A DNA stretch of 64,000 nucleotides from Saccharopolyspora phatthalungensis (GTDB taxonomy: Bacteria; Actinomycetota; Actinomycetes; Mycobacteriales; Pseudonocardiaceae), in contig NZ_JACHIW010000001.1 in NCBI RefSeq assembly GCF_014203395.1, positions 1,984,001-2,048,000 of the forward strand, read 5' to 3'. The position numbers and the translations under genes were made by a program. The notes beneath the pieces were generated by a model that did no database searches, was not told where the DNA came from, and was given only the letters and a program-made list of their open reading frames with translations. Positions 1-52,037 of this stretch are shown here, in pieces (position 1 is the stretch's first letter; every line of letters starts with the position of its first letter).

Positions 1-581
1 GCCACCGAGCCGCCCGCCGCGTCCGCGGCCACCACCCCCGTCGGCACGACCCTGCCGGTCGCGGCGAACTCGGGGGCCACTTCGACGGCGAACCCATCGG
101 TCGGCCGGAAGCCTTCGACGAGCAGCCCGCGCGTGGTGACCACGATCGGCCGGACCACGAATTCGACCAGGTAGTCCAGTTCCGGCCAGCCGGACGGGCG
201 ACCGTCGAGCAGCCGCCGCAACCTGCCGCCGGTGAACTCCCCCAACGGCACGGCCAAACGCTGGTTTCCCGGCGAGTCCCCGGGTGCTCCGCAGTACAGC
301 GCAAGCAGATCGTCCCGCGCGATCAAACCTCGTACGTTGCTGGAAATCGACGCTCCTGCCGACGCGACCGGTCCCTGCTCGCACCACCGGCGAAACGGTC
401 CTCCGAGAAGTGCTTTTCGTTGACAGCGGAGCTTAGTTGCTGGTCCGCGGCGATCGCTTCCGGCGTCTACGTGGGCGACGTGCCAGCGCGGCACGCGCCC
501 CTCCGCCCGGTAACACCGTGGTGGACGATCGTCGCGCGAGCCGATGAATTCACCTGGGCCGAACTCATCGGCCACCGGCAC
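1..581 (-). CDS. IucA/IucC-like protein, C-terminal end cut by the window edge (partial)
   Basis: The minus-strand frame is open from the window edge to about position 660 with no stop, and third-position GC is high from about 326 down to 1. The translated part contains VRPIVV and then GFAVEVAPEFAATGRVV. This aligns by eye with residues 296-345 of the large fusion protein at 4819-8268 (GVAFELSPELQATGRIV). The layout resembles the C-terminal lobe of IucA/IucC siderophore synthetases, but no catalytic motif is visible in the fragment. The start is unresolved: GTG at 581 is one choice, TTG at 326 a shorter one, and codon use is less typical above 326. It follows a small gene in the same orientation by about 80 bp. 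The family call is inference from weak similarity. Confidence 0.45.
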   Translation of the reverse strand, partial: MPVADEFGPGEFIGSRDDRPPRCYRAEGRVPRWHVAHVDAGSDRRGPATKLRCQRKALLGGPFRRWCEQGPVASAGASISSNVRGLIARDDLLALYCGAPGDSPGNQRLAVPLGEFTGGRLRRLLDGRPSGWPELDYLVEFVVRPIVVTTRGLLVEGFRPTDGFAVEVAPEFAATGRVVPTGVVAADAAGGSV

Positions 582-660
582 CCGAAGTCCCGGCTCGATC
601 AGCCGCAACGCGAGTGAATCGCTACCGTGACGCGAAAAAACCCGTCCCGTCGCCGAAAGG

Positions 661-1179: not shown

Positions 1180-2091
1180 TCAGCTGTACGGGGCCCATTG
1201 GGTCACCAGATCTCCGTCGCGGATCGTTCGCAGCCGGCGATGCAGCTGGTCGCGAACCCCCGGATTGCTCCGCAGGATGGGCAGCACACCGGTGGTGATC
1301 TTGAGTTCGCGTAGCTGGCGCAGCACCGGAAAGCCTTCCCACGCGGTGATGTCGAAGCCGTAAGCGCGGGCCAGATCGTCGTGCCAATCAGGTGGGTGCC
1401 CCATCCGCAGGCGCCCCACCGCGATCGGCGTCAGGTCCCATTCCGGCGGGCCGATGCACAGCGAATCGAGGTCGCACAGCAGCGGCCCATCGGCGCCGCC
1501 GATCACGTTGCCCAGGTGCGCGTCGGCGTGGATGATGCTCTGCGGCAGCGGGAATCGCAGCGATTTCAGCCGTTCTTCGAGGTAGTCGCACCGCTGCTCA
1601 AGGAAGTCGTGGTCGGCCGGATCGATGTCCACCGCGTCGGCCAGTCGGCGCCGGATGTCGGCCATCGGCTGCCAGTCCAGGAACGTCGGGGACACCGGCA
1701 TGGAATGCATCCGGCGCAGCAGTTCGCCGAGGTCGCAGCCGCTGGGCACGGGGCCGATCTCCGGCACGTGCTGCCACAGCGTCGCGAAGTGTTCACCGAC
1801 CTGAACCGGCTGTTCCAGGCCGGGCAGCAGGCGCACGGCGGGCACGCCGTGGCAGGCCAGCCAGCGCGCGGCTTCGACGGCGTTGAAAGCGCGGTAGGTG
1901 AAAGACGGGGAAAGCACGATGCGGACCACGACAGGGTGCTCTTGCAGCAAGAAAACCCCGTTGTTGACGAATCGGATCAGGCGCGCGCCTCGCGGATCCA
2001 GGCCGACGGCCACGCAGATTTCGGTCAGTGCGGACTCCAGCTCCGGCGGGATGCACGGGCCCTCTGCCACCTGGTATGTCTTCATGCTCAT
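1180..2091 (-). CDS. aminoglycoside phosphotransferase (APH) family kinase-like protein
   Basis: This 303-residue protein has the APH/choline-kinase fold signature. The catalytic loop HADAHLGN is at residues 188-195 and the metal-binding Asp follows in LLCDLDSLCIGPPEWD at about 207-209. The N-terminal lobe carries the nucleotide-binding strand region around VVVRIVLSP. Members phosphorylate hydroxyl groups of small molecules; the substrate here cannot be told. The ATG at 2091 was chosen over upstream in-frame starts because these would run into the upstream regulator gene, which ends at 2135. The 43-bp gap and shared orientation suggest an operon with the XRE-TPR regulator, a pairing I believe recurs in Pseudonocardiaceae. 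Confidence 0.85.
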   Translation of the reverse strand: MSMKTYQVAEGPCIPPELESALTEICVAVGLDPRGARLIRFVNNGVFLLQEHPVVVRIVLSPSFTYRAFNAVEAARWLACHGVPAVRLLPGLEQPVQVGEHFATLWQHVPEIGPVPSGCDLGELLRRMHSMPVSPTFLDWQPMADIRRRLADAVDIDPADHDFLEQRCDYLEERLKSLRFPLPQSIIHADAHLGNVIGGADGPLLCDLDSLCIGPPEWDLTPIAVGRLRMGHPPDWHDDLARAYGFDITAWEGFPVLRQLRELKITTGVLPILRSNPGVRDQLHRRLRTIRDGDLVTQWAPYS

Positions 2092-2134: not shown

Positions 2135-3505
2135 TCAGCCCTGGCGGAACCGCCGGACTTCCTCGAACAGGTCGCGAACATCGGAATTCATCCGGTGTTT
2201 GCCCGCCTCGATTTCCAACGGCTTGAGCCGGTCGGCGACTCGCGCGGATTTGACCAGGTCGCCGAACTGCAGCGCCCGCCGGCCGACCTTGATGCCTTCC
2301 TGCAGGTCACCGGCCCGGAAGTGGTTGGTCGCCTGCAGACTCAGCCCGAACACGTGGGTCCGCTGCATGTCCGCGCCGTATGCCTCGTTGCACTTGATGG
2401 TCTCGGCGACCGCGATCGAGGCGTGCCGCTTCGGATCGAAGTTGGCCAGCGCGTCATGTGCCGAACCGATCATCCCGTGCAGGTCGTTCTCGTTGAAAAA
2501 CCGCACCCAGTCCGGCGCCTCGTCGGCCTTGGCTCGGGCGAACTCGTCCTTGGTCCGGCCCACCATCTTCTGCACCTGGTCGGGCTTGTTCAGCATGCCG
2601 TAGGCCCACGCTTCGTTGGCGCACAGCACCGCGACGGTCAGCGCCGAACCCGACTCCTGCGCGGCGATCTGGCCCAGCTGGAACAGCTTCAGCGCCTCGT
2701 TGGGCTCCTGGTAGTGCAGGTAGACCCGGCCCATCCGGTAGAGCACGCTGGCCACCAGGCCGTCGTCGTTGGCCTGCTTGGCGAACTCCAGCGCCTTGCC
2801 GAAGTGACCGCGCGCCGGGTCGAGCAAACCGATGTCGAAGGAGGTCCAACCGGCCAGGCTGTGCATGTCCGCCAAGGCGACGAACAGTTGCTTGCGCACG
2901 GGATCCGCCGCGCTGGACTCGAGCAGTTGCTGCGCCCAGGACAGCTGGGCGACCACGGCGTCGCGGCAGGTCCCGCCCCCGTAGCGGTAGTCGAGGTCGC
3001 GCAGCGCCTTGGTGGCGGCCTGAATCTGCTGCACATCGGTCATGCCGATGCGCGCCGGGGCGGGTGTCTGGGCGCTGGTCGGCACCCAGTTGTTGTCCCC
3101 CTCGCCGAACACGGCCGCACCCATGGTCACGGCCGCGGCATGGGACAAGAACTTCCGACGCTTCACCGACTCGTCCTCCTCAGCATTGGGGGCGTTGGCC
3201 GCCTTGGCGACCCGCATGGCGGTAGCCCCGTCGTATGCGAGGCCCATGTAGCCCCGCGGAATTCCCAGCCCGTCGGCGATCCGGGCCAGCACGTCATAGG
3301 CCATGACCTGCCGCCCCTTGAGAATCTCGGACACCTCGGACTGCGACTGCCCCGTCGAGGCCGCTATCTGGCGCTGCGAGACGCCGTGCCGGCGCAGTTG
3401 CCGGTAGATCTCGCTGACGTCCCGTCGGGCCAGCGCATCCCGCATTTCCCGATCGTTCCAAACGTCGGGTGTAACGGGAGAGCCGCCAGAACCGATGATG
3501 TTCAT
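2135..3505 (-). CDS. XRE-family regulator with TPR-like C-terminus (NsdA-type)
   Basis: The 456-residue protein has an N-terminal Cro/C1-type helix-turn-helix (about residues 30-90, with GVSQRQIAASTGQSQSEVSE). A linker contains a KRRKFLSHAAAV segment near residue 115, followed by a long all-helical TPR-like region from about 160 to the end. This architecture matches the actinobacterial NsdA-like regulators that affect differentiation and secondary metabolism; that is family knowledge. It is divergent from two small genes at 3729 and 3988, and the intervening 223 bp probably holds both promoters. The KRRKF segment followed by small and hydrophobic residues mimics a Tat signal. Because it sits after a DNA-binding domain, I read it as a family feature, not an export signal. 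Confidence 0.85.
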   Translation of the reverse strand: MNIIGSGGSPVTPDVWNDREMRDALARRDVSEIYRQLRRHGVSQRQIAASTGQSQSEVSEILKGRQVMAYDVLARIADGLGIPRGYMGLAYDGATAMRVAKAANAPNAEEDESVKRRKFLSHAAAVTMGAAVFGEGDNNWVPTSAQTPAPARIGMTDVQQIQAATKALRDLDYRYGGGTCRDAVVAQLSWAQQLLESSAADPVRKQLFVALADMHSLAGWTSFDIGLLDPARGHFGKALEFAKQANDDGLVASVLYRMGRVYLHYQEPNEALKLFQLGQIAAQESGSALTVAVLCANEAWAYGMLNKPDQVQKMVGRTKDEFARAKADEAPDWVRFFNENDLHGMIGSAHDALANFDPKRHASIAVAETIKCNEAYGADMQRTHVFGLSLQATNHFRAGDLQEGIKVGRRALQFGDLVKSARVADRLKPLEIEAGKHRMNSDVRDLFEEVRRFRQG

Positions 3506-3987: not shown

Positions 3988-4326
3988 GTGGATGAGATCC
4001 TGGGGCAGGTGCTGCGCAAGGCGGTACGGGAGCGGCTCGACTTGTTGAGCGAGCTCGCGAACCGCGCCGACGCCCCTTCCCTGCTCTCCGTGGCGCGTTC
4101 CGAACTCCCCCGACTCACCGAGGGGTGGCGGACGCTGCTCACCGCGCACGACGCCGACGAAAAGGGCAACTGCCCGGAGTGCTCCGGCCGTTGGCGCCCG
4201 CAGAAAGCACCGTGCTCGGTGTGGCGCTCGGCCTATGAGCATCTGGTGGCAGGGGCCCTGGCACCCCGTCCCGCACGGCACCTGCGCCCGGCGCACGCAC
4301 TGCGCCCGGCCGCGCCGGTGCCGTAA
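3988..4326 (+). CDS. small protein with a CPEC...C zinc-binding-like motif
   Basis: Using GTG at 3988 the product is 112 aa (an ATG at 3949 would overlap the preceding gene). After a helical N-terminus (DEILGQVLRKAVRERL) it has CPECSGRWRPQKAPCSVW, a spacing that could bind a metal, then a Pro/Ala/Arg-rich tail that may be disordered. It follows the 81-aa gene in the same direction and is divergent from the XRE-TPR regulator. The function is unknown. A role as partner of the regulator is inference from position only. Confidence 0.6.
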   Translation: MDEILGQVLRKAVRERLDLLSELANRADAPSLLSVARSELPRLTEGWRTLLTAHDADEKGNCPECSGRWRPQKAPCSVWRSAYEHLVAGALAPRPARHLRPAHALRPAAPVP

Positions 4327-4818: not shown

Positions 4819-7800
4819 CTACTTGCGGCGGAGGCGGGCCCGGGCGGCGAAGTCCGGGTCCAGCCGGATACCCGGCGGAGTGCTCGCAACCCGCTGGGCC
4901 GGCACGGCGGCGCCGGCCGGTCCGGTGAGGTGGGTGCGTTGCGCGGGCACCATCAACCACGGCTGGCGGGGGCCGAGCAGCGGCGAATACACCGGCACGA
5001 AACCCTGGTCGAGCAGCGAGATGGCGAAATCCACCGCCACGTTGCCGCGGGCGTCGAGCACCCCGGTGCCCTGCCAGGGCAGCAGGCCGGAGCCGCCGAG
5101 GTAGGTGAACCCGAGGCAGCCCTCGCGGACCGCGCTGAGGGTCAGCCGCACCCGGTTCGGGAACATCCGCTCGTAGCCGAACTCCTCGTCGACCTGCATA
5201 GTCGCCAGGTAGCGGACCACCGCGTGCCAGGCGCGACGCAGCACCGCGCAGCGCGCCTGCCGCACCTTGGCCGACACGCTCCGGTCGGCCAGGTTGTAGA
5301 TGTCGGCATAGACCACAGTGGACCATTCCAGCCGGTCCGTGCCGGGCGGCACCACGACCGGCACCGAATACACCAACGACATCAGGATTTCCCGGAACAG
5401 CCCGATGATCTGGGGCCGGAACCCGGTCATGGTGGCAGTGTGCAGGTGCACGCGTTCCAAGGTCCGCAGCGGGTTGTCGGTGATGTCGAAGCGCGACAGC
5501 GACTCGGCGAGCATTTGGCGATAGCGGCCGATCAGAGCGATGCGCTCCTTCGGTAGGCCCGGCCCCAGCCGCTGCTCGGCGACGGTGTCGATGTCCGCCA
5601 CGGTGGTCCGGTCGCCGATGCCGACCAGGTCGACGTACTCGCGCAGCTTCTTCTGGTAGGCCTCGGTGATCGCGTGCGGCCGACTGCGGAAGTGCCGGCC
5701 GTCGGTGAGGATGTTGAAGTGCAGGCCGGGCGGATACACCGCGCTGACGGCCCGCTGGAGTTCCCGCAGTCGCGCCATCCCGCCGAATTCGGCGAAGTCG
5801 GGTAGCGGCCCGGCCGCCTTCAACCGGTTCAGACACTGCTTGACCGGGAAGCCGAGCAACACCACCTCGACGGGCTCGCCCCGGCGCACGAAAGGTCCGG
5901 CGTCCCGCCGCAGGTCGGCCGGTTGATAGTGGGACCGCGAACCCTTGATGAACTGCTTGCGGGTGAACACGTGGTGCATTGCCGCCAAGACCTGCTCCGG
6001 AGCGCTGCGGTCGTCGATACCGAACTTCGCGGCCGCGCCGCGCCCGGTCCGGGCCGCCGCCCGGTCCACGTCGGCCAGCACGGAGTGCAGGATGGCGCGC
6101 GACTCCTGCTCGGTCAGGTGCACGGCCCAGTGCTGTGCCAAGCGGTTCTTGCGCAGCGCGCCGATCTGCAGTTCCTCCAGCGAATGCGTGTTGGACAGCC
6201 GCGGGCCGATGCGCGCCGCGGGTCGCGGCGTGGTTTCGAAGGTGGCGATCACGGCCTCGGCATCGACGACTGGTTGGTCCGGGGGGCGTTCGGTGGCCAG
6301 GCCGGGGACCTCGACGGCGATCGCAAGCGCCTCGCCGAACTCCTTGGTCATCGCGATCCGGTTGGCCGGCTCGTCGTCGAAGACCGCGACGACGTCGAGC
6401 TCGCCGAGCTCGCGGAGTTTCGCCACCTTCAGCTCGGAGCGCGGGCGGCCACCGTCTTCGGGTAGGCACACCAGCGTCGCGTCCGGCACCCCGGCGGCGG
6501 CGAGTACCTCCTCGGTGGGCTCCCGGAACCGCTCACGGTGTCCGCTGCAAAACACCACCCGCCCGCCGGCGTCGCGCACGTCCCAGACGAACCGGGCCAG
6601 CCCGGCGTTCACGCTGTCGGTGCGAAGTTTCTCCCTCGGGCGGGCCAGGAAAGCGCGTACGAAGTCGGCGTGCACCTCGTTCCAGTCCACCGTGGGGTAG
6701 CGCTTGCCGAGGCCGCTGAGCTCGACGAAGTTGCGCCAGGCACCGGTGGAGTGGGTCGGCAGCACCGGCAGGGCGCCGGGCCCGGCCAGTTCGAGGATGC
6801 CCTCCGGCGCACCCGGTCGCGGCCCCGAGACCGCGCGCGCGGCGTCTAAAACCCGTTGCAGCGGCACGAGTCCGCACAGGCCGAGATCGATGATGACGGC
6901 CGGCTGTGGCAGTCGGCCGTCCCAGCGGCGCCGACGGGTTCGTTGCTGCACCCGGTCCAGCACCGATTTCAACACCGCGTCCTGGGATTCCGGCACGGTG
7001 TGGGCGTAGTACCGCAGCGGTTGTTCACCGGAGAGCAGTTCGGCGGTGTGCGGCGCCAGGTAGCGCAGTTCCTCGGCAATCACCCGGTCGACGGCTCGCC
7101 GCACCCGGCTTTCCCGCTGCCCGGCATCGAGCTGGCTGAAGGCGGCGCTCAGTTCGTCGAGAGTCGCGACCAGGGCGCGCACGCCGGTCGCGACCTCGGC
7201 GCGGGTCGGCTCGTGGCTCACCCGCAGGTAGTCGGTGAGCACGATCCGGCCGGTGGCCTGCAGTTCCGGCGAGAGCTCGAAGGCGACACCGGTCTCGTCC
7301 AGGGCGAACAGCCCGATCCGGTGCGCGTCGAGGGCCAGCCGGAAGGCCCGCAGCAGCGGGCGGACGAAGCGCTCCAGGAAATACTCGAGCTGATCCTCCC
7401 GCCGCTCGAAGCGGTTGTCGAGCACCACCCGCAGCAGTCCTGGTGCACCATCGTTGCCCGGGTGCAGCAGCGTGGACAGGTCGGCGGCGATGGTGCCGCC
7501 GGGGTGCGTCGGGTGCGCCGGCGCGGGCTCGGTGATTCGGGTCAGGGCGGCCGAACCGGTGGCGGTGTCGACCACGGCGGCCGGCACCGGCAGGGTTGCG
7601 CAGTGCATCCGCAGGTCCGGATCAGACTCCACAATGGACGACAGCCGTTCCCAGCCGCGGAGCTGGCGCAGCGCGCGCTCGCGGGGACCGGTGGCCTGCA
7701 ACTGTACGGTGCGCTCCGGTCCGCTGACGGTGATCTGCTCCGCGGGGAACGGCACGCTTCGGTTCGGGCCGGTCACTGCGGCGAGGCAGTCCTCGGCAAG

Positions 7801-8268
7801 TTGCCGCTGGGCCGAGGTCAGCAGGTCGAGACGATCGGCGGGCAGCGGCACCGATCCGCCGGCGCCGCGGTCGGCGGTCAGGGACCGGGTCAGGCGGTGC
7901 AGCCAGGCAGGATCGAACACCCGGCGCGTGCGCCGCAACCGGATCAGGGCTCGGTAGAGATCGGACCAGTTCGGCTCGCCGCCCAGCGGTAGTCCGGCAC
8001 CGGCACCGGCGCCGCTGAGCCGCAGCGTGCCGTGCGCGGACCGCTCCACCCATAGCCCGTAGCCGCCGTCGGAGAGCAGTGCGTTCGCTGCCGGAATGGT
8101 CAACGGCTGCCACCACCCGGGCGCGGGGCCCGGTTCATCCGCCGCGGCCTCGCGGAGCGGGCCCGACGGGGCGGGGAGCGCCGAGGTCAGCCGCGCGGTC
8201 ACGCGGCGGTGCGCGTCGCGCGCGAAGCCGAAAAGACATGGGTACCGGCGGCACTGGTACCGCGGCAC
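4819..8268 (-). CDS. IucA/IucC-like - HAD-like - isocyanide synthase (DIT1/PvcA) fusion protein
   Basis: The 1149-residue protein starts at GTG 8268. Residues 1-440 are an unnamed region. Residues 265-345 (LEYFLERFVRPLLRAF... ELQATGRIVLTDY) resemble the C-terminal lobe of IucA/IucC synthetases. Residues 455-665 look like a HAD domain: IIDLGLCGLVP (461-), VVFCSGHR (572-), Lys at 614/617 and VAVFDDEPANR (628-). The second Asp of motif I is Gly. Residues 700-1110 match the DIT1/PvcA isonitrile-synthase family: FPVKQCLNRLKAAGPLPDFAE (807-), YPPG (845-848), TDGRHF (855-860), and LLPWQG (1062-) where the family usually has PWHG. PvcA/IsnA-type enzymes convert Tyr or Trp to isonitriles with a pentose phosphate and are about 330 aa. 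I know no characterised protein with this architecture. No 2-oxoglutarate oxygenase partner lies nearby. Confidence 0.85.
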   Translation of the reverse strand: MPRYQCRRYPCLFGFARDAHRRVTARLTSALPAPSGPLREAAADEPGPAPGWWQPLTIPAANALLSDGGYGLWVERSAHGTLRLSGAGAGAGLPLGGEPNWSDLYRALIRLRRTRRVFDPAWLHRLTRSLTADRGAGGSVPLPADRLDLLTSAQRQLAEDCLAAVTGPNRSVPFPAEQITVSGPERTVQLQATGPRERALRQLRGWERLSSIVESDPDLRMHCATLPVPAAVVDTATGSAALTRITEPAPAHPTHPGGTIAADLSTLLHPGNDGAPGLLRVVLDNRFERREDQLEYFLERFVRPLLRAFRLALDAHRIGLFALDETGVAFELSPELQATGRIVLTDYLRVSHEPTRAEVATGVRALVATLDELSAAFSQLDAGQRESRVRRAVDRVIAEELRYLAPHTAELLSGEQPLRYYAHTVPESQDAVLKSVLDRVQQRTRRRRWDGRLPQPAVIIDLGLCGLVPLQRVLDAARAVSGPRPGAPEGILELAGPGALPVLPTHSTGAWRNFVELSGLGKRYPTVDWNEVHADFVRAFLARPREKLRTDSVNAGLARFVWDVRDAGGRVVFCSGHRERFREPTEEVLAAAGVPDATLVCLPEDGGRPRSELKVAKLRELGELDVVAVFDDEPANRIAMTKEFGEALAIAVEVPGLATERPPDQPVVDAEAVIATFETTPRPAARIGPRLSNTHSLEELQIGALRKNRLAQHWAVHLTEQESRAILHSVLADVDRAAARTGRGAAAKFGIDDRSAPEQVLAAMHHVFTRKQFIKGSRSHYQPADLRRDAGPFVRRGEPVEVVLLGFPVKQCLNRLKAAGPLPDFAEFGGMARLRELQRAVSAVYPPGLHFNILTDGRHFRSRPHAITEAYQKKLREYVDLVGIGDRTTVADIDTVAEQRLGPGLPKERIALIGRYRQMLAESLSRFDITDNPLRTLERVHLHTATMTGFRPQIIGLFREILMSLVYSVPVVVPPGTDRLEWSTVVYADIYNLADRSVSAKVRQARCAVLRRAWHAVVRYLATMQVDEEFGYERMFPNRVRLTLSAVREGCLGFTYLGGSGLLPWQGTGVLDARGNVAVDFAISLLDQGFVPVYSPLLGPRQPWLMVPAQRTHLTGPAGAAVPAQRVASTPPGIRLDPDFAARARLRRK

Positions 8269-8602: not shown

Positions 8603-8773
8603 ATGGACATCACCGAAATCGAGGGCAATCCTCACAACCCGCCGGTGAACCAGACCGCCGAGTCGAACGCTCGGCACCATCTCCCCCAGGGCTCCCCTGA
8701 AAGAGGATCACGGTCGTGGTCGGCAAGATGGTCAGCGAACATGATCAAGGAGTCGCCTTGCCTGCCGAAGTAG
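8603..8773 (+). CDS. possible small ORF, 56 aa, overlapping the tetR start
   Basis: This ATG frame begins MDITEIEGNPHNPPVNQTAE and ends IKESPCLPK. Its first 33 codons have the third-position GC expected of coding DNA. The remainder overlaps the start region of the TetR gene in another frame and looks less coding-like. No clear Shine-Dalgarno is seen. It could be a short leader peptide, a small gene or chance. No family is recognised. Confidence 0.25.
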   Translation: MDITEIEGNPHNPPVNQTAESNARHHLPQGSPERGSRSWSARWSANMIKESPCLPK

Positions 8774-9405
8774 CCCCGCTGCGGCGAAAGCCGGTCCAGC
8801 AGCGCAGCGCACAACGTGTGGAGAAGATGCTCTCGGCCTGCGCCGAGCTGATCGACGAGGTGGGCTATGACGGTTTAACAACCACCCTCATCGCCGAACG
8901 AGCCGGTGTCGCGGTCGGTTCGCTGTACCAGTTCTTTCCGGACAAGCGCGCCGTGGTGCAGGAACTAACGCTGCGCAACCTGGACCGCTTCGTGCGCACC
9001 GTGTCCGTCCGGTTCGACCAGCTGGAGCTGGAGCACTGGTGGGATGCGGTGGACGCCGTCTTCGACGTCTACCTGACGATGCACCGGGAAGTCCCGGCAT
9101 TCAGCCGACTGCACTTCGGCGACGTGGTCGACCTGCGGCTGCTGGATCCGAGCAAGGACAACAATGCGGTGATCGCGGAGAAGCTCACCGGCCTGATCGC
9201 CGAGGAGTTCGAGCTCGACCCGACGGAACTGCTGCTGCCGCTGGCGGTCGCGGTCGAGGCGGCGGACGCGGTGCTGCACTTGGCGTTCCGACGCGACCCC
9301 GCCGGCGAGCCGACGCTCGTCGCGGAAGCCAAGGAACTGGTGCGCGGCTACCTGTCCAACCGGATGCCCGGCGGTCAGCCGAAGGATCTGCCCTCACCCC
9401 GGTAG
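8758..9405 (+). CDS. TetR-family transcriptional regulator
   Basis: The N-terminal TetR helix-turn-helix is clear: SACAELIDEVGYDGLTTTLI, AERAGVAVGSLYQFFPDK. A helical ligand-binding C-terminal region follows. I chose TTG 8758 because AAGGAG lies five bases upstream and the N-terminus is then of typical length (215 aa). GTG 8716, with AAGAGG nine bases upstream, would add 14 residues. The 3' end overlaps the 3' end of the convergent PLP-enzyme gene by 31 bp. Possible targets are the divergent fusion gene or the operator at 10593-10617; both are inference. Confidence 0.85.
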   Translation: MPAEVAPLRRKPVQQRSAQRVEKMLSACAELIDEVGYDGLTTTLIAERAGVAVGSLYQFFPDKRAVVQELTLRNLDRFVRTVSVRFDQLELEHWWDAVDAVFDVYLTMHREVPAFSRLHFGDVVDLRLLDPSKDNNAVIAEKLTGLIAEEFELDPTELLLPLAVAVEAADAVLHLAFRRDPAGEPTLVAEAKELVRGYLSNRMPGGQPKDLPSPR

Positions 9406-10574
9406 GTGGGCACGGTGGCGGCCAGCCGATCGGCCGCCACCAGGTGGTAGTGGGCGAACCGCTCGGCCAGCTCGCCAGCCTTGGCGTGCCGGAACCAAAC
9501 CCGGTCGCCGAGCCGGAGCCGCCGGGCCGCCTCCCCGACGACGGGTGTCTGAACCTCGCCGGCACCCTCGGTCGCGAGCAGCCGGATTCCGCTCGGCGAG
9601 CAAGGCGCGGGCACCCGGTCGGCGCCGATCGGCCCGGAGGCGGGGTACCCACCGCTGAACACCGTCGCGATGCGCGCGGCGGGGCGGTGCACGACCGGTA
9701 GTGCGAACAGAACTGCCGGTCGTGGCCGAAAGGCTTGGTAGCAGTCGAACAGCGTCGGGCCGATCAGCCCGGAACCGGCGGCGACCTCGGTGACGGCTGG
9801 TTCAGCGGCGGTGCGCTCCAGGCTGCCGGTGCCTCCGCCGTTGACGTACTCCAGCGGAGCCAGCGCCCGCACCGCCCGCACCACGGCGGCCCGGCGCTCG
9901 GCCAGTTCCGCTGCCGACCGCTGCTGCATCCAACGCAGCGCGGCGGCCTTCAGCGGCTGTCCGCCCGGCGCGTCGCCCAGCCCGGCGATCTGGCCTTCGT
10001 AGGCCATCAGCCCGACGAGGTGAAAGCCCTTGCGGCGCAGCACCAATTGGGTCAGCCGACGCGCCTGCGTGACGGTGTGCACCGGCGACCGGCGGGGGCC
10101 GACGTGCAGGCCGGGCAGCGGCCGCCAGGACGCGTCGACCTCGATGCAAAGCCGGATGTCGTGCCGGGCGGAGCCGGCGGTGGCGCCGAGTGCGGCGTCG
10201 ATCAGATCGAGGTGTTCGACGGAGTCGACCATCACCGCGATCGATGCCGCCGCGGCCGGGTTGGCCGCGAGTTCGCGCAGCGCCGCGCGATCGGCGGTGG
10301 GGTAGGCGACCAGGACGTCGTCGCTCAGGCCCGCACGGTGCAGCCAGAGCGCTTCGGCCAGGCTGTAGCACATCAGCCCGGCGAAACCGGGGGTGCGCAG
10401 CACCCGTTCCAGCAGGTAGCGGCAACGCACCGATTTGGTGGCGACTCGAATCGGTCGCCCGCCGGCCCGACGCGCGAGATCGGCCGCGTTGTGGTCGAAC
10501 GCGTCGAGATCGACCACCGCGAACGGCGGGTCGAGCTCGCTGGTGATCTCGTCGTACCTGCGCACGCCGTTCAC
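9375..10574 (-). CDS. PLP-dependent D-threonine aldolase / amino-acid deaminase-like protein (alanine racemase fold)
   Basis: The protein starts near NGVRRYDEITSELDPPFAVVD. It has an alanine-racemase-type N-terminal barrel with the PLP lysine in RVATKSVRCRYLL, then GFAGLMCYS and AYEGQIAGLGD. A C-terminal beta domain ends with the metal-site-like GDRVWFRHAKAGE. Family members cleave or deaminate D-hydroxy-amino acids. The start is GTG 10574 or GTG 10565 (399 or 396 aa). The long upstream open frame is a shadow of the divergent oxidase gene. In Actinobacteria this enzyme often stands next to a sugar-lactone oxidase, as here. Confidence 0.8.
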   Translation of the reverse strand: MNGVRRYDEITSELDPPFAVVDLDAFDHNAADLARRAGGRPIRVATKSVRCRYLLERVLRTPGFAGLMCYSLAEALWLHRAGLSDDVLVAYPTADRAALRELAANPAAAASIAVMVDSVEHLDLIDAALGATAGSARHDIRLCIEVDASWRPLPGLHVGPRRSPVHTVTQARRLTQLVLRRKGFHLVGLMAYEGQIAGLGDAPGGQPLKAAALRWMQQRSAAELAERRAAVVRAVRALAPLEYVNGGGTGSLERTAAEPAVTEVAAGSGLIGPTLFDCYQAFRPRPAVLFALPVVHRPAARIATVFSGGYPASGPIGADRVPAPCSPSGIRLLATEGAGEVQTPVVGEAARRLRLGDRVWFRHAKAGELAERFAHYHLVAADRLAATVPTYRGEGRSFG

Positions 10575-10592
10575 CGTAGGCCGAAGACCCTT

Positions 10593-10617
10593 ATTATGTG
10601 AATAAGATTCACTTAAT
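10593..10617. promoter_or_regulatory. palindromic operator in a divergent promoter
   Basis: An 11-bp imperfect inverted repeat, ATTATGTGAAT-AAG-ATTCACTTAAT, has a perfect GTGAAT/ATTCAC core. It sits exactly between the divergent PLP-enzyme and oxidase genes in an AT-rich island. It is a good candidate binding site for a dimeric repressor controlling both genes; the TetR regulator at 8758 is one candidate. Confidence 0.6.
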
Positions 10618-10652
10618 AGGTTCTCCTCGTGACACCCGAAGGAGTGCCAACG

Positions 10653-11996
10653 ATGCAGCGTTGGACCAACTGGGCACGCACCGTTACCGCTGCCCCCGGC
10701 TCCGTGGTGGCACCGCGCGACACCACAGAAGCGGCGGAGGCGATCCGCGCCGCAGCACGCCGTGGCGGTACCGTCCGGCCGCTGGGCGCCGGACACTCGT
10801 TTTCTGGCATCGGCTCGCCGAACACCGGCTGCGCGCTGGACCTCTCGCACTGGTCCGGGATCGTGCAGGCCACCCCGGACGATGGCCTGGTCAAGGTGCG
10901 CGCCGGCACGCCCCTGCACCAGCTCAACGCCGAACTCGACGGCCTCGGCCTGGCGTTGGCGAACCTGGGTGACATCGACCGGCAGACCATCGCCGGGGCG
11001 ATCGCCACCGGCACTCACGGCACCGGAGCCGGGCTCGGCGGCCTCGCGACCCAGATCGAGGAGCTGGAACTGCTGCTCGCGGACGGCACCGAGAAGCGCT
11101 GCTCCGCCACGGAGAATCCGGAGCTGTTCGCTGCCGCCCGGGTCGGCCTCGGCGCGCTCGGGGTGATCACGACCGTGACGCTGCGTTGCGTTCCGGCGTT
11201 CGCCTTGGCCGCCGACGAGCGGCCAGCCCGGCTTGATGACGTGCTGGACGGCTTCGACGAGCTCGCCGCCGACAACGACCACATCGAGTTCTACTGGTTT
11301 CCGCATGCCTCGAAAACGCTGGTCAAGCGGAACAACCGGCTCCCGGCCGGGGAATCACCGCGCCCGCTGCACCCGCTCCGGCACTTCCTCGAGTACACGG
11401 TGCTGGAGAACCGGCTGTTCGGCGCGGTATGCCGACTCGGACGCGCGGTCCCGGCGTCGGTGCGACCGCTTAACCGGTTCTGCGCCTCGACCTGGTCAAC
11501 GCGTTCCTACAGCGACCGCTCTTACCGGGTCTTCACGACGCGGCGCGACGTCCGGTTCGTCGAATGCGAGTACGCCGTGCCGCGGGAAGCGCTGCGCGAC
11601 GTGCTCGACGAGCTGCGGATCGCGGTCGGACGCCTCGCCGACCCGGTGATGTTCCCGGTGGAGGTGCGGGTGGCGGCGGCCGACGATGTGTGGCTGTCCA
11701 CCGCCTACCGCCGCCCGTCGGCCTACATCGCGGTTCACCAGTTCCAGCGGATGCCGTACCGGCGCTGGTTCGACACCTTCGAGGACATCGTCGGCGCGGT
11801 CGGCGGGCGACCGCACTGGGGCAAAGTGCACCGGCTCGACGCCTCAGCCCTGCACGAGCTCTACCCGCGCTTCGACGACTTCCGCCGGGTGCGCGCCGAG
11901 GTCGACCCCGGCGGGGTCTTCCGCAACCCGTACCTCGACCGCGTCCTCGGCCCTGTGGATAACTCGGTCGATTTCAAGTGGAAATCGACGCGCTGA
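10653..11996 (+). CDS. FAD-linked D-arabinono-1,4-lactone oxidase family protein
   Basis: The product has 447 aa from ATG 10653. AAGGAG eight bases upstream favours this start over GTG 10629. It contains a PCMH/FAD_binding_4 N-terminal domain (RPLGAGHSFSGI near residue 50, GAIATGTHGTGAGLGG near 115) and a C-terminal ALO domain ending with the conserved HWGKVH and YPRFDDFRRVR. Such enzymes oxidise aldonolactones or alditols using oxygen. It is divergent from the D-threonine-aldolase-like gene across a shared operator. The TGA stop falls inside a hairpin at 11967-12013. Confidence 0.85.
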   Translation: MQRWTNWARTVTAAPGSVVAPRDTTEAAEAIRAAARRGGTVRPLGAGHSFSGIGSPNTGCALDLSHWSGIVQATPDDGLVKVRAGTPLHQLNAELDGLGLALANLGDIDRQTIAGAIATGTHGTGAGLGGLATQIEELELLLADGTEKRCSATENPELFAAARVGLGALGVITTVTLRCVPAFALAADERPARLDDVLDGFDELAADNDHIEFYWFPHASKTLVKRNNRLPAGESPRPLHPLRHFLEYTVLENRLFGAVCRLGRAVPASVRPLNRFCASTWSTRSYSDRSYRVFTTRRDVRFVECEYAVPREALRDVLDELRIAVGRLADPVMFPVEVRVAAADDVWLSTAYRRPSAYIAVHQFQRMPYRRWFDTFEDIVGAVGGRPHWGKVHRLDASALHELYPRFDDFRRVRAEVDPGGVFRNPYLDRVLGPVDNSVDFKWKSTR

Positions 11997-15420: not shown

Positions 15421-15867
15421 TCACAGCCCGAGAAGCGCCCGCAGGTGCGCGTACTTCCGAGTGAGCCGCTCCCTCGTCGCTTCGTCCAGCACGGCCAACC
15501 GCGCCGGGTCGGCATTGTGCGCCAGGTCTGCCTCTTTCACCAGCAAAGCCCCGGGCGTCCGCAGGATCCGAGTCGCGTAATCCGCCGGAGTCTCGCCGGC
15601 CCGCTTGGTCACGGCCAGCACGATGTCTTTGGTTTCGGCTGCCAGCGGCGCGGTCTGCAGCCACTCCTCCGAAACCGCCCCGTCCTCAACGGCATCGTGC
15701 AACCACGCAGCTGCGACCTGAGCTTCGCTGCCGCCGCGAGCCACTACCCCAGCGGCAACAGCGGCCAAGTGCTCGACGTAAGGTCGCCCAGCCTTGTCGA
15801 CTTGCCCACCGTGGACCCGAGCGGCAACGGCCGCAACCTCGTCGAGCCCCAGCACTCGCACCGTCAC
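15421..15867 (-). CDS. HD-domain phosphohydrolase (RelA/SpoT hydrolase-like)
   Basis: The protein of about 148 aa carries the HD arrangement: AARVHGGQVDKAGRPYVEHL, then AAAWLHDAVEDG and a later KEADLAHNADP. This matches the metal-dependent hydrolase half of RelA/SpoT-like proteins. It is much shorter than full Rel and lacks synthetase and ACT domains, so it may be a small (p)ppGpp or nucleotide hydrolase. The GTG 15867 start is chosen from the family N-terminus; an upstream in-frame start at 15894 is possible. It is probably cotranscribed with the pcaD-like gene. Confidence 0.75.
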   Translation of the reverse strand: MTVRVLGLDEVAAVAARVHGGQVDKAGRPYVEHLAAVAAGVVARGGSEAQVAAAWLHDAVEDGAVSEEWLQTAPLAAETKDIVLAVTKRAGETPADYATRILRTPGALLVKEADLAHNADPARLAVLDEATRERLTRKYAHLRALLGL

Positions 15868-15934
15868 GACCGAACCGTAACAACCCAACACCACAGTCCG
15901 TCCCGGGAAAAGGTCCGCGAACCGCCGCCACCAC

Positions 15935-17101: not shown

Positions 17102-18493
17102 ATGCTCACACGGGAGGAAGACATCGACGCACACGCCCTGTTCGCCCGGGGTTGGACGATCTCGGCGATCGCCCGCCACCTGGGCAGGGACCGTAAGACC
17201 ATCCGCGCCTATCTCTCCGGCGTTCGCCAGGCAGGCGCTCTCTCCGGCGTTCGCCAGGCAGGCGCTCGTGCCCGCAGCACGCCTGATCTGTTCGAGCCGT
17301 TCGCCGCCTACTGTGCGGCGCGGCTGACCGAGGCCCCTCATCTGTGGGCCACCACCCTGTACGACGAGCTGCTCGAACTGGGCTACGGCTCGTCGTATCC
17401 GACGCTGACACGCCAGTTGCGCGAGCGTGGCCTGCGCCCGCCGTGCGAGCCGTGCCGACCGGCCAAGGACCGGGCGGTGGCGGTGATCGAGCACCCGCCC
17501 GGGGATGAGACCCAGTGGGACTGGCTCGACCTGCCCGACCCGCCCGCGCACTGGGGCTGGGGTAAGACAGCGCATCTGCTGGTCGGGGCGCTGTCGCACT
17601 CGGGCCGGTGGCGTGGGGTGTTGTGCGCGAGCACCGATCAGCCGCACCTGATCGACGGCCTGGACCGCATCACCCGGGCACTGGGCGGGTGCACCCACGC
17701 GTGGCGGTTCGACCGGATGGCCACCGTGATCAACCCCGAGTCGGGTCGGGTACAGGCCTCGTTCGCGGCGGTGGCCAAGCACTACGGTGTCGCGGTCCGG
17801 GCCTGCCCGCCCCGGCGGGGGAACCGTAAGGGTGTGGTGGAGAAGGCCAATCACGTTGCGGCGCAACGGTTCTGGCGCACCCTGCCCGACGATGTCACAC
17901 CCGAGCAGGCCCAGCAGCGGCTCGATGCCTGGTGCGCCACGCGGGGCGACACCCGGCTACGCGCCACCACCGACGGCAAAGCCACAGTGGCCGCCCTCGC
18001 GCACGACGAGCCGCTGCGACCACCTCCAGCGGCCCCGTTCCCCGCCACCCTGACGGTGTCCCGGGTCGCCTCGGCGCAGGCGCTGGTGTCCTTCCGTGGC
18101 AACCGCTACAGCGTGGCCCCTGAACTCGCCGGCGCCACCGTCACCGTCTCCCATCGGCTGGGCACCAGCCACCTCGATATCGCTACCGAGTCCGCGACGG
18201 TGATCGCCCGCCACACCCTGGCACCCGAGGGCGCCGGGGCGATGGTCCGCGACCACGGCCACGTGACCGCGCTCGAACACGCCGCGATAACCGCCACCAC
18301 CGCTCGGCCACACCGCGGCAAACAACGCATCCCACCCGGCCCGCACGCGCGAGCGGCCGCACAGGCCCTGCGCGGACAGCAGCCCAGCGGTACCACCACC
18401 GGCGGTGAGGTGGTCATCGACCTCGCCCGCTATGCCCAAGCAGCCGCCGCCCGCCGCACCCTGCCCCCGGCCGGCCCGGCCCTCCAGCAGTGA
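17102..18493 (+). CDS. istA: IS21-family transposase IstA
   Basis: The 463-aa protein has an N-terminal HTH (ISAIARHLGRDRKTIRAYL). The DDE core includes QWDWLDLPDP with the first Asp, later Asp residues around FDRMATVI, and the Glu in KGVVEKAN. A C-terminal beta region (VSFRGNRYSVAPELAG) follows. A 27-bp in-frame duplication (17213-17266) gives LSGVRQAGA twice between the HTH and the next segment. Otherwise the length is normal for IstA. Confidence 0.9.
   Translation: MLTREEDIDAHALFARGWTISAIARHLGRDRKTIRAYLSGVRQAGALSGVRQAGARARSTPDLFEPFAAYCAARLTEAPHLWATTLYDELLELGYGSSYPTLTRQLRERGLRPPCEPCRPAKDRAVAVIEHPPGDETQWDWLDLPDPPAHWGWGKTAHLLVGALSHSGRWRGVLCASTDQPHLIDGLDRITRALGGCTHAWRFDRMATVINPESGRVQASFAAVAKHYGVAVRACPPRRGNRKGVVEKANHVAAQRFWRTLPDDVTPEQAQQRLDAWCATRGDTRLRATTDGKATVAALAHDEPLRPPPAAPFPATLTVSRVASAQALVSFRGNRYSVAPELAGATVTVSHRLGTSHLDIATESATVIARHTLAPEGAGAMVRDHGHVTALEHAAITATTARPHRGKQRIPPGPHARAAAQALRGQQPSGTTTGGEVVIDLARYAQAAAARRTLPPAGPALQQ
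17213..17266 (+). repeat. 27-bp perfect tandem duplication inside istA
   Basis: Two adjacent copies of a 27-bp unit begin CTCTCCGGCG (17213-17239, 17240-17266) and add nine residues in frame after the transposase HTH. It looks like recent replication slippage. Confidence 0.85.
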
Positions 18494-46350: not shown

Positions 46351-47475
46351 TCAGCCCGGGAGGCGGACAGGCATCAGGAGGTAGAGGTAGCCCTCCGTTA
46401 CTGCTCCATCCTCCCCGACCGGCTTGACCAGTGCGGGGCGGTTGGCGGTGGTGAACTGCAGCTGGGCCCGTTCGGTCTTCATCGCGCCAAGGCCGTCGAG
46501 CAGGTAGGCCGGATTGAAGGCGATGGTCAGCGGCTCGCCGACCAGCTCGACCGCGAGCTCCTCTTCGGCGCTGCCCTCGTCGTCACCGCCGGCGGTCAGC
46601 CGCAGCACCCGATCGGAGAACTCCAGCCGAACCTGGGTGCCACGCTCGGCGACCAGCGACACGCGCTTGATCGCCTCTACCAGCGGTGCGACGTCGACGT
46701 TCGCGGTCACCGCACTCTCGGCGGGCAGCAGCTGGCGGTACTTCGGGAACTCCGCGTCCAGCAGCCTGGTGGTGGTGCGGCGCGCGGTCCCGGACAACCC
46801 GAGCAAACCGTCGCCGGATGCCAGCGAGATCTCCACCTTGCTGCCACCGGTGCCCAGCGTCTTCGCCGAGTCGGCGAGGGTCTTGGCCGGGACGAGCACC
46901 GAGGTGTCGGTGATCGACGTACCCGGTTCCCAGGTGATCTCGCGCATCGCGAGGCGGAACCGGTCGGTGGCGACCATGGTCAGCTTGTCCGCGTTGATCT
47001 CCATCCGGATGCCGGTGAGCATCGGCAGCGTGTCGTCCTTGCCGGCCGCCACCGCGACCTGGCCGACGGCCTCGCTGAACAGATCGCCGGGCACCGAACC
47101 GGCGTGTTCCGGCATCGCGGGCAGTTCCGGGTAGTCCTCGACCGGCATGGTCGGCAGGCTGAACCGGGAGCTGCCGCAGGTGATGGTGACGCGGGAGCCG
47201 TCGACGGTGATTTCCACCGGACGGGCCGGGAGCGCCTTGGTGATGTCGGCCAGCAGCCGCCCGGAAACCAGCGTGCGTCCGCTGGCATCGATCGAGGCGT
47301 CGGTGGTGACCTGCGCCGAGACCTCGTAGTCGAACCCGGAGATGGTCAGCGCCTCCCCGGAGCTCGCGTCGAGCAGCACCCCGCCCAGCACCGGAACCGG
47401 TGGCCGCGACGGCAGGCTGCGCGCGACCCAGGCGACGGCGTCGGCGAGACCGTCACGTTCCACGCGGATCTTCAT
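46351..47475 (-). CDS. dnaN: DNA polymerase III sliding clamp (beta)
   Basis: The 374-aa protein has three clamp domains: [51 protein letters not shown] in the middle, and the C-terminal cleft [12 protein letters not shown] that binds client motifs. The ring tethers polymerase III. It is separated from dnaA by the 1.3-kb origin. Confidence 0.97.
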
Positions 47476-48771
47476 GGGTGTCCTTTCGGTTCCAGCCGTG
47501 GCTCGGCTGCCGGAGAACTGTGTCGAGCTGGAGCGAAGCAGCTCATCGGGTCGGTGTGCTTCGTGCCCACGCAGCGAGGGCGAAGCGATCCCCCACGAGC
47601 GCCGTGCACGCGAAGTCAGACCCGAGCCCGAAGTTCACGGGCGACCTTCGCGGGAGTTCCACCGTAGAGCGTGCGACGTGATCGCCGCATCCGGGTCCGA
47701 GCACTCGGTGAGGCCGTCCAGGGGGCCGCGGCCGAGTTATCCACTTATCCACCGAGCCTTCTTCTCTTTTTCTTTTTTCTTCAAAGAGAAGAAATGACCG
47801 CAGTAGTAGTAAGGGCTGTGAGTTGTGGGGACAAGTGTCGTTTGGGCTGGTCGGATGGCGTGGCTGGGTGTGGATGAACACGGGAAGTAACCGGGGACTA
47901 CGACAACCGGGTGGTGGACAACTTTTGCTTCCCCTCGGTTCATCCACAGCTACCCCGAGTTGTCCACAGTTCCATCCACAGTTGTTGGCCCAGTTGTACC
48001 CAACCCCTGTTGGTTTTCGGCCTCTCCACCGATCAGGTTGTGGGCAAAGCTGTGGGAGCGTTGTGATCAACTCGGCCTCACCATGTGGGCAGCTTCCCCC
48101 AGCTTGTGCACAGCTTGTGGATGGTTTGGGGAAAACTCCAGGTCAGCCCTGGGGATAGCGAATCTGTGGACAACTCACCCGGCGGCAGACTTTTTTGCCG
48201 ATGGGGTGAGGCGAAGACCACCCCGGCCCGCAGAAAAGTTCGGCGCCCCAACACCCGTCCGCGACAGCGGAGCGCGCTTGATCAACCTCGGAACGTGGTG
48301 GTTTGCTGTCCCGGCGGGTCCCGCGGGAGCTCGATGCGCCCAGAACCCGGGCTTGTGGAGGCCGCCGTGGAAGCCCGAAGTTTTCTGCTGAGGGCGGCTG
48401 ATCCGACCCGGCTGGTCCAACAGAAAGATCCCGGCGCGCTTGACGGTACCCAGGGGCGCCGCGCGCGAAGCGGGGCAACATTCCTGCCGCCCGGCAATCG
48501 GTGACCGCCGCTCCCGGCCCGGTGACGCGTCGCCGGACCGATGGCCTACGACGTTCGGCGACGCGCCTTTCTGTTGTCCTGGGTGCCTCACGCCGGGGCG
48601 GGGCGGCAGAAAGATCCGCCGCGCTCGCCGTAGGGGATCACACCAGGCGTGCCGCGTTAGGGCCACAGCGGGCTTCTATGCGCGCGGGCCTTCTGGCCAC
48701 GGGCATTTGCGAAGCAGGGATAGCCCAACGCGCGCAACGTCAGGCGGAACTACCTGGGAATCCTCGAAAGA
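47476..48771. other. replication origin oriC between dnaN and dnaA
   Basis: This is 1.3 kb without a gene. Exact or near-consensus DnaA boxes include TTATCCACT/TTATCCACC (47737, 47745), GGTGGACAA (47913), TCATCCACA (47940), exact TTGTCCACA (47960-47968), CCATCCACA (47972), TTGTGCACA (48104) and exact TGTGGACAA (48165-48173). An AT-rich tract with an 11-bp hairpin TTCTTCTCTTT/AAAGAGAAGAA (47759-47793) and TAGTAGTAA (47804-47812) is a candidate unwinding site. Confidence 0.9.
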
Positions 48772-50508
48772 TCAGCGCGACTGCTGCTTGATGCGAGCGG
48801 TCAGCTCCTGGACGTGCTCGTAGATGCGCCGCCGCTCGGCCATCTCCTTGCGGATCTTCTTGTCCGCGTACATCACCGTGGTGTGGTCGCGGCCGCCGAA
48901 GTACTGGCCGATCTTGGGCAGCGACGAGTCGGTCAGCTCGCGGCACAGGTACATCGCGATCTGCCGGGCCTGCGCCAATGCCTTGGTCTTGCCCGGCCCG
49001 CACAGGTCGTCGATGGTCACACCGAAGTAGTCCGCGGTCACCGCCATGATCGTCGGCGGGGTGATCTCCGGGGTCTGCGAGTCCGGGATCAGGTCGCGCA
49101 GCACGATCTCGGCCAGCTGCAGGTCCACCGGCTGGCGGTTCAGCGACGCGAACGCGGTGACCCGGATCAGGGCCCCCTCCAGTTCGCGGATGTTGCGTTC
49201 GATCCGGGAGGCGATGAACTCCAGCACGTCGGCCGGCGCGTTCATCCGGTCCTGCGCGGCTTTCTTGCGCAGAATCGCGATCCGGGTCTCCAGCTCCGGC
49301 GGCTGGATGTCGGTGATCAGGCCCCACTCGAACCGGGTGCGCAGCCGGTCCTCCAGGGTGCGCAGCCCCTTCGGCGGCCGGTCCGAGGACACCACGATCT
49401 GCTTGTTCGAGTTGTGCAGCGTGTTGAAGGTGTGGAAGAACTCCTCCTGGGTTCCTTCCTTTCCTTCCAAGAACTGGATGTCGTCCACCAGCAGCACGTC
49501 AACGTCGCGGTACCGGCGCTGAAACGCCACCTGCCGGTCGTCGCGCAGCGAGTTGATGAAGTCGTTGGTGAATTCCTCGGTGGACACGTAGCGGACCCGC
49601 ATCCCGGGGAACAAGCGCTGCGCGTAGTGCCCGACCGCATGCAACAGGTGCGTCTTGCCGAGCCCGGACTCACCCCAGATGAACAGCGGGTTGTAGGCGC
49701 GGGCCGGAGCTTCGGCCGCTGCGACGGCGGCGGCGTGCGCGAACCGGTTCGAGGAACCGATGACGAATGTGTCGAAGGTGTACTTCGCGTTCAGCCGCGT
49801 CTGCGAGGTCGGCGGCGCGTTCTTCGGCGCCGTGAACGGCTGGCCCTGCTGCGGCTCGCCCGGTTGACCGGCCCGGCCGAAGGTCGGCCAGATCTCGCTG
49901 CCGGTTTCCTGGCTCTCCGCCTCGGGCCCGGCCGTTTCCGGCTCGCCCTCGGCCTCGCCGTCACCCTCCAACGGCTGCGGCATCTCGCCGTTCGGCCACT
50001 TGAAATCGGCCGTCGGGAATTCGATCTCGGGGGAAGAATCCGGCGGGGCGTGCCGACCCTCGTTGGTGGGCACCGGCCCGATGATGGAGCCGCTGTGCGA
50101 GGTCTGCCCGAACGCCTCGGCCGCACGGCCGAAGCCCGGCACCGAGATGTACGTAGGAGACGGCTGATCGGCACCGGCCGCGGAGCCGCGCCCCGACCAG
50201 GATTCGGCCGGAGCGGGCGCTGCGACGGGTCGGGTCGGTGCGGGAACCGCAGTGTCCACCTTCACCGCCAACGACACGGCGCGGCCGAGCCGACGGGACA
50301 ACGCGTCGGTGATCGGGTCGCGCAGCGCGCGCTCAATGGCTTCCTTGGCGAAATCGCTGGGCGCGGCGAGCAATGCGGTACCGTCCAGCAGCCCGATCGG
50401 CCGGGTCACCCGCATCCAAGCGCGTTGTTGAGGTGAGAGCGTGCCGGAGGACAGCTCCTGCACCACCTCTTCCCAAACTCGACCGAGATCGGCTTGGTGG
50501 TCGGACAC
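48772..50508 (-). CDS. dnaA: chromosomal replication initiator DnaA
   Basis: The 578-aa protein starts at GTG 50508 (GGGAG eight bases upstream). Domain I is residues 1-85 ([12 protein letters not shown]). A long acidic, Gly/Pro/Glu-rich domain II spans about 85-235. Domain III is AAA+ with Walker [10 protein letters not shown] and Walker B LLVDDIQF, and domain IV has the DNA-binding signature [14 protein letters not shown] near the C-terminus. The expanded domain II is usual for actinobacteria. Confidence 0.97.
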
Positions 50509-51091
50509 CGCCTTGCTCCCCTCCCCTCGCTCGCGCAGCCCCCGGTGCGGTCCCGGGGCCTGGCTCCCACGGTGCTCGGGTGCGGGCGGTGTCACGGGAC
50601 GGTGGGGCCATACTCTGGCGGGCACCGATCCACGCAGGTGTCCACAGAGTTGTCCACAACTTGTGTATGAAGGTACGGCAGGCCGCTTCGGTGATCCCCC
50701 CTGGGGCCGTTGTACCGCTGCGATCGAGGTCAGGGTCCCTGCCGAGGCCGGTGCTCCCACCCACCGGCTGCGTATCGCAGGGGGGCACGCTAACAAGGCC
50801 GGGCCACGCTCACAAGCAACATCCCGGAGATGCCGGGAAGATCGTGATGTGGCAGCCTTGACGGCGAGTCGGCGACCCCGGTTGTGCGTCCCCTGTTGCC
50901 ACTGCGTACTCTCGTATAGTCCCCCGCTTCCTGAGCGGGCACGTCGCTGCGCCGATATTCCGGCGCCGTGCACCGCTCGGTGTCGCCGGTGGCCGCACGG
51001 ATGGCGACTGCGACTCACGAAACAGGGACACCTTGACCGAACCGTGGTTCACCGTGGCCATCGGTGCCTGTAGTAACCGGGAGATCCGACC
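50509..51091. promoter_or_regulatory. dnaA-rpmH divergent promoter region
   Basis: DnaA boxes GTGTCCACA (50640-50648) and exact TTGTCCACA (50652-50660) lie about 135 bp upstream of dnaA, consistent with autoregulation. The remainder contains the rpmH promoter; no gene is seen. Confidence 0.6.
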
Positions 51092-51235
51092 GTGAGCAAG
51101 GGCAAGCGCACTTTCCAGCCGAACAACCGCCGCCGTGCCAGGAAGCACGGGTTCCGGCTGCGCATGCGCACTCGGGCCGGCCGAGCCATCGTGGCCACGC
51201 GCCGTCGCCGGGGTCGCGCGCAGCTGACTGCCTGA
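51092..51235 (+). CDS. rpmH: 50S ribosomal protein L34
   Basis: The 47-aa, highly basic protein starts [20 protein letters not shown] and ends GRAQLTA, matching bL34. GTG 51092 has GGGAG eight bases upstream. It is first gene of the rpmH-rnpA-yidD-yidC-jag-rsmG-parAB block, divergent from dnaA as in most bacteria. Confidence 0.97.
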
Positions 51236-51247
51236 TCGCGCCCGGCC

Positions 51248-52032: not shown

Positions 52033-52037
52033 CACGC

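Follow-up and report, generated by a model that had tools for sequence, protein, structure and literature searches.

A three-module protein of Saccharopolyspora phatthalungensis joining siderophore-synthetase-like, HAD phosphatase-like and divergent isonitrile-synthase folds

How much can be read from the name 'L-tyrosine/L-tryptophan isonitrile synthase family protein', under which many public records are filed? The question is raised by a gene on a 64,000-nucleotide stretch of the Saccharopolyspora phatthalungensis genome (RefSeq assembly GCF_014203395.1, contig NZ_JACHIW010000001.1, positions 1,984,001 to 2,048,000; the whole stretch is called the window below), whose class includes many records of that name. 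The gene, here termed ICS1, is an open reading frame (ORF) of 1149 amino acids with a GTG start that occupies 4819..8268 on the minus strand, reading from 8268 down to 4819. Its GC contents at the three codon positions (0.75, 0.51 and 0.89) resemble those of neighbouring genes. The database copy of the protein, P0002, begins at ORF residue 56, leaving the true start codon uncertain; residues of the ICS1 structure model are converted to ORF residues by adding 55.

Three folds on one conserved polypeptide

ICS1 is a single conserved polypeptide that combines the fold of the siderophore synthetases independent of nonribosomal peptide synthetases (NIS synthetases), without an intact NIS signature, with a haloacid dehalogenase (HAD) phosphatase fold and the PvcA/IsnA fold of isonitrile synthases (ICS). 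In the structure model, the N-terminal NIS-synthetase-fold module spans ORF residues ~101-423 (7000..7968, minus strand), the HAD phosphatase-fold module residues ~437-679 (6232..6960, minus) and the ICS-fold module residues ~748-1109 (4942..6027, minus). We assign this NIS-HAD-ICS architecture because homology is joined by confident models. An independent structure model of a Nonomuraea relative likewise matched the HAD and ICS folds; no NIS chain was among its matches, and as its N-terminal part comprises only ~180 residues, it neither supports nor refutes the first module.

A first-pass annotation made from the sequence letters had already read three modules into this frame. All three folds are indeed seen in the structure model, although a Pfam scan of the whole protein recognizes the ICS part alone: PF05141 (DIT1_PvcA) matches residues 793-923 only (5500..5892, minus), with E 3.5e-16 and a score of 60 bits where the cut-off is 26.4, and the IucA_IucC, FhuF and HAD models find no match at E<=1. 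This significant DIT1_PvcA match bears out what had been expected of the C-terminal part, and the motifs YPPG, TDGRHF and PLPDFAE, claimed for residues 770-1110, are all present. The HAD domain placed at residues 455-665 is recovered as a HAD fold, while the NIS resemblance placed at 265-345 stands by structure comparison only, there being no IucA_IucC or FhuF match behind it.

That the C-terminal module belongs to the ICS family follows from several lines of evidence. HHalign scored it at 98.5% against 18 canonical ICS frames (reversed control 0.8%) and at 99.5% with 58 divergent sequences, the homology was also recovered by a PDB profile, and the structure model has the PvcA/IsnA fold over the ICS domain. 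Yet the module departs widely from the canonical enzymes. Within the aligned span, 63 positions are near-invariant (>=94%) in the 18-frame canonical set; in the divergent set of 58 sequences, 19 of these are kept (>=85%), nine are kept by a majority (N107, L115, L124, G150, F153, R201, D239, V280 and H310), 29 are replaced and six lie opposite gaps. The RLSIHPQ of PvcA and PIsnA reads RLTLSA in ICS1, the RGxxRF motif is also replaced, and PWH has become PWQ, PWH being retained in the standalone rows of the alignment and in the five rows of ICS2, the tandem paralog described below. With 27.6 bits, ICS1 stays far below the cut-off of 600 of the NCBIfam equivalog for tyrosine isonitrile synthase, TyIsonSynPvcA. 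In trees, the divergent class forms one clade separate from canonical ICS, with support of 100/100 and on a long branch. Within the isonitrile-synthase family, ICS1 falls in a divergent clade that has so far been seen in actinomycetes. Because 29 canonical positions are replaced and motifs are changed, the public family name conveys homology rather than function; with nearly half of the canonical positions replaced and two further folds on the same chain, it may even mislead.

The class is well represented among relatives. A homolog search that scored 8000 candidates listed 64 proteins at E<=1e-3 (P0002 included), which are 893-1199 residues long and come from Saccharopolyspora, Actinopolyspora, Actinoalloteichus, Halopolyspora, Haloactinomyces and others. 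Across 390 genomes of the family, 93 have a match at E<=1e-10; the 86 matches at E<=1e-130 fall in 65 genomes that represent 13 of the 46 genera, and the match that follows is at 3.9e-22. Open frames of at least 800 residues hold 74 of these strong matches and frames of 473-630 residues the other 12, one of which (G482) sits at a contig end. Two copies of the divergent class are present in 20 of the 22 listed genomes of the same genus, with one genome carrying a single copy and one none. A scan of 394 genomes at the level of the class found a match of that strength in the genome of origin only, the other 10 matching genomes giving partial matches between 1e-11 and 1.3e-14. Beyond the family, a profile search retrieved standalone forms in Fodinicola and in metagenome-assembled genomes of Micromonosporaceae, as well as three-part proteins of 819 residues in Nonomuraea. 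The trees leave the order of three-module and standalone forms unsettled; the linker found at the end of the HAD module in the long forms is present close to the start of Fodinicola P0101, which suggests that modules were lost. Pairwise ratios of nonsynonymous to synonymous substitution rates (dN/dS) range from 0.10 to 0.54 across four segments and nine pairs and are low in every module.

The NIS-like and HAD modules

In the ICS1 structure model, the N-terminal module matches the NIS core fold, with AcsD residues 158-559 as counterpart (275 aligned residues, rmsd 3.5). By sequence, the relationship is not detected: neither NIS family of Pfam (IucA_IucC, FhuF) matched any of 22 domain members, the PDB profile was negative as well, and HHalign against 14 motif-bearing NIS frames from relatives reached 1-3% (reversed 0.1-0.3%). 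Given that Pfam misses the fold here, annotation may underrate how common NIS-like modules are.

The signature of NIS synthetases is EAHxQN ... RD, and it is present in the 14 NIS frames of relatives. If strands are aligned in order, GVAFELSPEL...GRIVLTD of the module stands opposite GIALESHAQN...RVVLKD of the relatives' NIS enzymes, with the Glu invariant and His, Gln and Asn replaced by Ser, Glu and mostly Leu. The HHalign register instead brings LALDAHRIG into this place, whose His is kept in ICS1 and in 51 of the 64 sequences, while Gln and Asn are not. The whole signature is kept in neither register. A further motif, HPxxPGGT, which may or may not correspond to the GHxxHPxxK loop of NIS synthetases, is near-invariant across the 64-sequence alignment (H197 and P201 in 64/64, the second His in 42); it does not have the Lys of that loop, and the range of the model places it elsewhere. 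The module has residues of its own that are invariant in all 64 sequences (in P0002 numbering H197, R231, R248, R255, E276, E280, G285, R286, E345, Q374 and R393), and its dN/dS of 0.12-0.31 is close to the 0.10-0.30 of the ICS module, which together argue that it is not decaying in Saccharopolyspora. Most other genera sampled have less sequence ahead of the HAD module.

The HAD module of ICS1 lacks the second Asp of motif I, which reads D461-x-G463 (DLGLC; window ~6880-6882, minus), whereas motif IV (D631-D632) is present. Both DxD and DD are kept in 46 of the 64 listed proteins, and in the remaining 18 at least one of motifs I and IV is not intact; DxG together with DD occurs among them in ICS1 alone, so that either this strain changed recently or the sequence contains an error. 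Weak PF03767 matches (E<=1), obtained for 16 of 21 members, and matches above the cut-off in P0095 and P0096 are consistent with a HAD fold. In some lineages, Actinopolyspora and Actinoalloteichus among them, the HAD motifs or most of the domain have disappeared. One helix of the module, GLxRFxWDVxDAGG, is nearly unchanged in the 64 sequences, a constancy that hints at a structural role.

Chromosomal setting and possible function

ICS1 has a tandem paralog, ICS2, whose 5' part occupies window positions 1..608 (minus) and which runs ~2.28 kb past the left window edge, to G000:C1:1981720. ICS2 consists of a reduced NIS part, a HAD part with DxD and an ICS part, and is ~35-37% identical to the HAD and ICS modules of ICS1. 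The two are the only PF05141 genes of their genome, the genome-wide match in ICS1 lying almost exactly where the protein match does, and the FhuF-type NIS synthetases of this genome lie on another contig. Between them are found an APH-type phosphotransferase (1180..2091, minus) and an NsdA-family TPR-like regulator (2135..3445, minus; NF053720, 324.6 bits against a cut-off of 75), while a divergent TetR-type regulator (8701..9405, plus) flanks ICS1 on the other side. The order TetR, ICS1, smallB, NsdA, APH, smallA, ICS2 recurs in 14/14 named Saccharopolyspora loci.

As a background control, we used the NsdA locus of 20 genera that are devoid of the divergent gene (one genome each, some with a canonical ICS elsewhere). 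TetR, smallB, NsdA, APH, CopC and DUF1775 were each found at 20/20 of these loci, so the neighbours carry no functional information. Within an older chromosomal block, the ICS-like genes occupy two sites close to each other; in the g256 genomes (L056-L059), the ICS-like gene lies outside it. Two tempting associations fell to the same control. A DUF1775-CopC pair (L003 16376-17595, left of the window) converges on ICS2 at a distance of ~125 bp and is found near many relatives' genes; the copper link that it might suggest was rejected. Likewise, the close same-strand arrangement of NsdA, APH and ICS in the standalone genera might have pointed to a regulatory or operon link, which was set aside. 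No dioxygenase, nonribosomal peptide synthetase (NRPS) or siderophore gene was recognized among the scanned neighbours in the window, the left flank beyond it lying outside the family-library scan.

Several other features of the surroundings may be recorded. Two small proteins have no NCBIfam match: one of 112 residues (3988-4326, plus) is family-wide, being present at 44/46 syntenic loci that carry an ICS-like gene and at 20/20 that do not carry the divergent gene, and one of 102 residues beside APH (661-969, minus) occurs at 38/46 and 10/20, respectively. Window positions 9375-11996 hold a divergently arranged gene pair for a PLP-fold (BhcC-like) protein and an FAD-linked oxidoreductase of the sugar-lactone-oxidase kind, both at 20/20 loci devoid of the divergent gene. 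A 157-residue protein (15421-15894, minus) has a partial RelA/SpoT match, and an IS21-type transposase (17102-18493, plus) adjoins a methyltransferase gene. Genes for the DNA polymerase III beta subunit, YidD and 60KD_IMP at 46354-52967 mark an apparent replication-origin region ~40 kb from the ICS pair.

What, then, might ICS1 do? The reading we prefer, if tentatively, is that of an ICS-derived enzyme with changed chemistry, in which the NIS fold serves as a scaffold and the HAD module as a dispensable helper. The catalytic work would fall to the C-terminal ICS module. Of the ICS domain, this module retains the part made up of FPxK, a second Lys, PD..E, PG, an Asp, AW, RL and PW, and it may accept an amine as substrate alongside a carbon donor of the phosphosugar type, which is ribulose-5-phosphate in characterized ICS. 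The canonical reaction joins an amino nitrogen with a carbon of that sugar (PMC7949033; see also PMC7345447). As RLSIHPQ and RGxxRF are replaced, we propose that the product would be a different one. The NIS-like module would then be a substrate-holding or regulatory scaffold and not an adenylating synthetase, and the HAD module would originally have taken a phosphate off the substrate or product, a facultative activity that several lineages, this strain probably among them, would no longer have.

A number of points weigh against this proposal. The alignment may overstate how altered the ICS part is, since nine of the 44 positions not counted as kept are majority-canonical and six face gaps, and lost ICS motifs might be compensated elsewhere in the protein. 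The ICS residues named as kept are picked out by conservation and are at most presumptively catalytic, and the reaction and product suggested here are proposals. The invariant charged residues of the NIS module could mean that it has a catalytic role of its own. The HAD module may still act in relatives with DxD and DD, and both ICS2 and the g256 group show changes in its conserved helix.

Doubtful, although it is what the family name implies, is a true isonitrile synthase, in which an isonitrile made from an amino acid and ribulose-5-phosphate would be conjugated by the NIS module with ATP and relieved of phosphate by the HAD module to give a metal-binding compound. The first-pass annotation had leaned towards an isonitrile or metal-binding product, for which we found no support: 29 of the 63 canonical positions are majority-replaced and six face gaps, RLSIHPQ is among the losses, PWH has become PWQ, the TyIsonSynPvcA score is far too low, the NIS signature is broken, HAD motif I is DxG, no isonitrile or siderophore partner gene was recognized among the scanned neighbours in the window, and the copper genes are background. 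We regard as unlikely a bolder variant of the preferred reading, a novel class of ICS-derived enzyme whose three ancient folds would make up an assembly line in which the NIS-like module, with its conserved charged site, would activate or hold an acid or amine, the HAD module would release phosphate and the remodelled ICS module would add a phosphosugar carbon. The resulting metabolite, the product of two chromosomally fixed genes near the origin in one actinomycete genus and related bacteria, would differ from known isonitriles and from siderophores.

Somewhat less probable again is an enzyme of the Dit1 type, i.e. an ICS-fold protein that makes an N-formyl amino acid or amine instead of an isonitrile, perhaps for the cell or spore surface. 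There is a precedent, in that yeast Dit1 is ICS-like, yet it most likely yields formyl tyrosine, and PvcA is no substitute for it (PMC7345447); the Saccharopolyspora genes also reside in a conserved chromosomal block. However, the likeness is one of description, and NsdA and the other neighbours are common to genera without the gene. We give slightly less credence still to a non-catalytic descendant, whose three modules would all have lost their ancestral chemistry to form a ligand-binding or regulatory scaffold. Signatures are lost in all three modules, and several relatives have HAD and NIS parts that are reduced in length or eroded; against this, 19 canonical ICS positions are kept, the ICS module also occurs alone and dN/dS is low throughout. 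Finally, an artefact in which sequencing or assembly joined separate genes can be dismissed as refuted because long frames are conserved, with 74 matches in frames of at least 800 residues among the 390 family genomes and with 14/14 named Saccharopolyspora loci. An NIS+HAD profile search (7999 length-limited candidates scored) gave three matches without a synthase, which might have spoken for such a fusion but look like pieces and not intact separate genes, P0104 ending inside the HAD part and the tails of P0105 and P0106 no longer matching HAD. The contig given for P0106 has the same length (7498) as that given for P0088, a standalone-type ICS, and the two may be one contig.

Relation to known systems

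Each module of ICS1 can be set beside a characterized family. With the NIS siderophore synthetases (AcsD, SbnC, IucC, AlcC, DesD), the N-terminal module has the core fold in common, whereas the match leaves ~150 N-terminal NIS residues unpaired, EAHxQN is not intact and Pfam finds no relationship. Compared with HAD phosphatases of the acid-phosphatase, PNKP-phosphatase or LNS2 type, ICS1 has Gly in place of the second Asp of motif I, and several lineages have lost the motifs or show an eroded domain. PvcA and IsnA (PF05141; PDB 3e59, 9dh4 and 9dhm) are chains of ~310-330 residues, as against ~450 for the ICS1 module, and ICS1 differs further in its replaced RLSIHPQ and RGxxRF, its PWQ for PWH, its two extra modules and its distance from the TyIsonSynPvcA cut-off.

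Lim et al. (2018, PMC5974471) describe two common ICS architectures in bacteria, single-domain and ICS-dioxygenase proteins, and also ICS-NRPS proteins in fungi. Like these known fusions, ICS1 embeds a PF05141 module in a larger polypeptide, but its partners are NIS and HAD modules rather than dioxygenase or NRPS domains; judged by titles and the starts of abstracts, no paper on an NIS-HAD-ICS architecture was found in the open-licence literature searched. Yeast Dit1, single-domain according to PMC5974471 and the first-pass annotation, is an ICS-family protein without an isonitrile product by its authors' test (PMC7345447), illustrating that a member of this family need not make an isonitrile. 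If active, ICS1 would show further chemistry of the ICS fold, in a combination with NIS and HAD modules not found in the literature searched.

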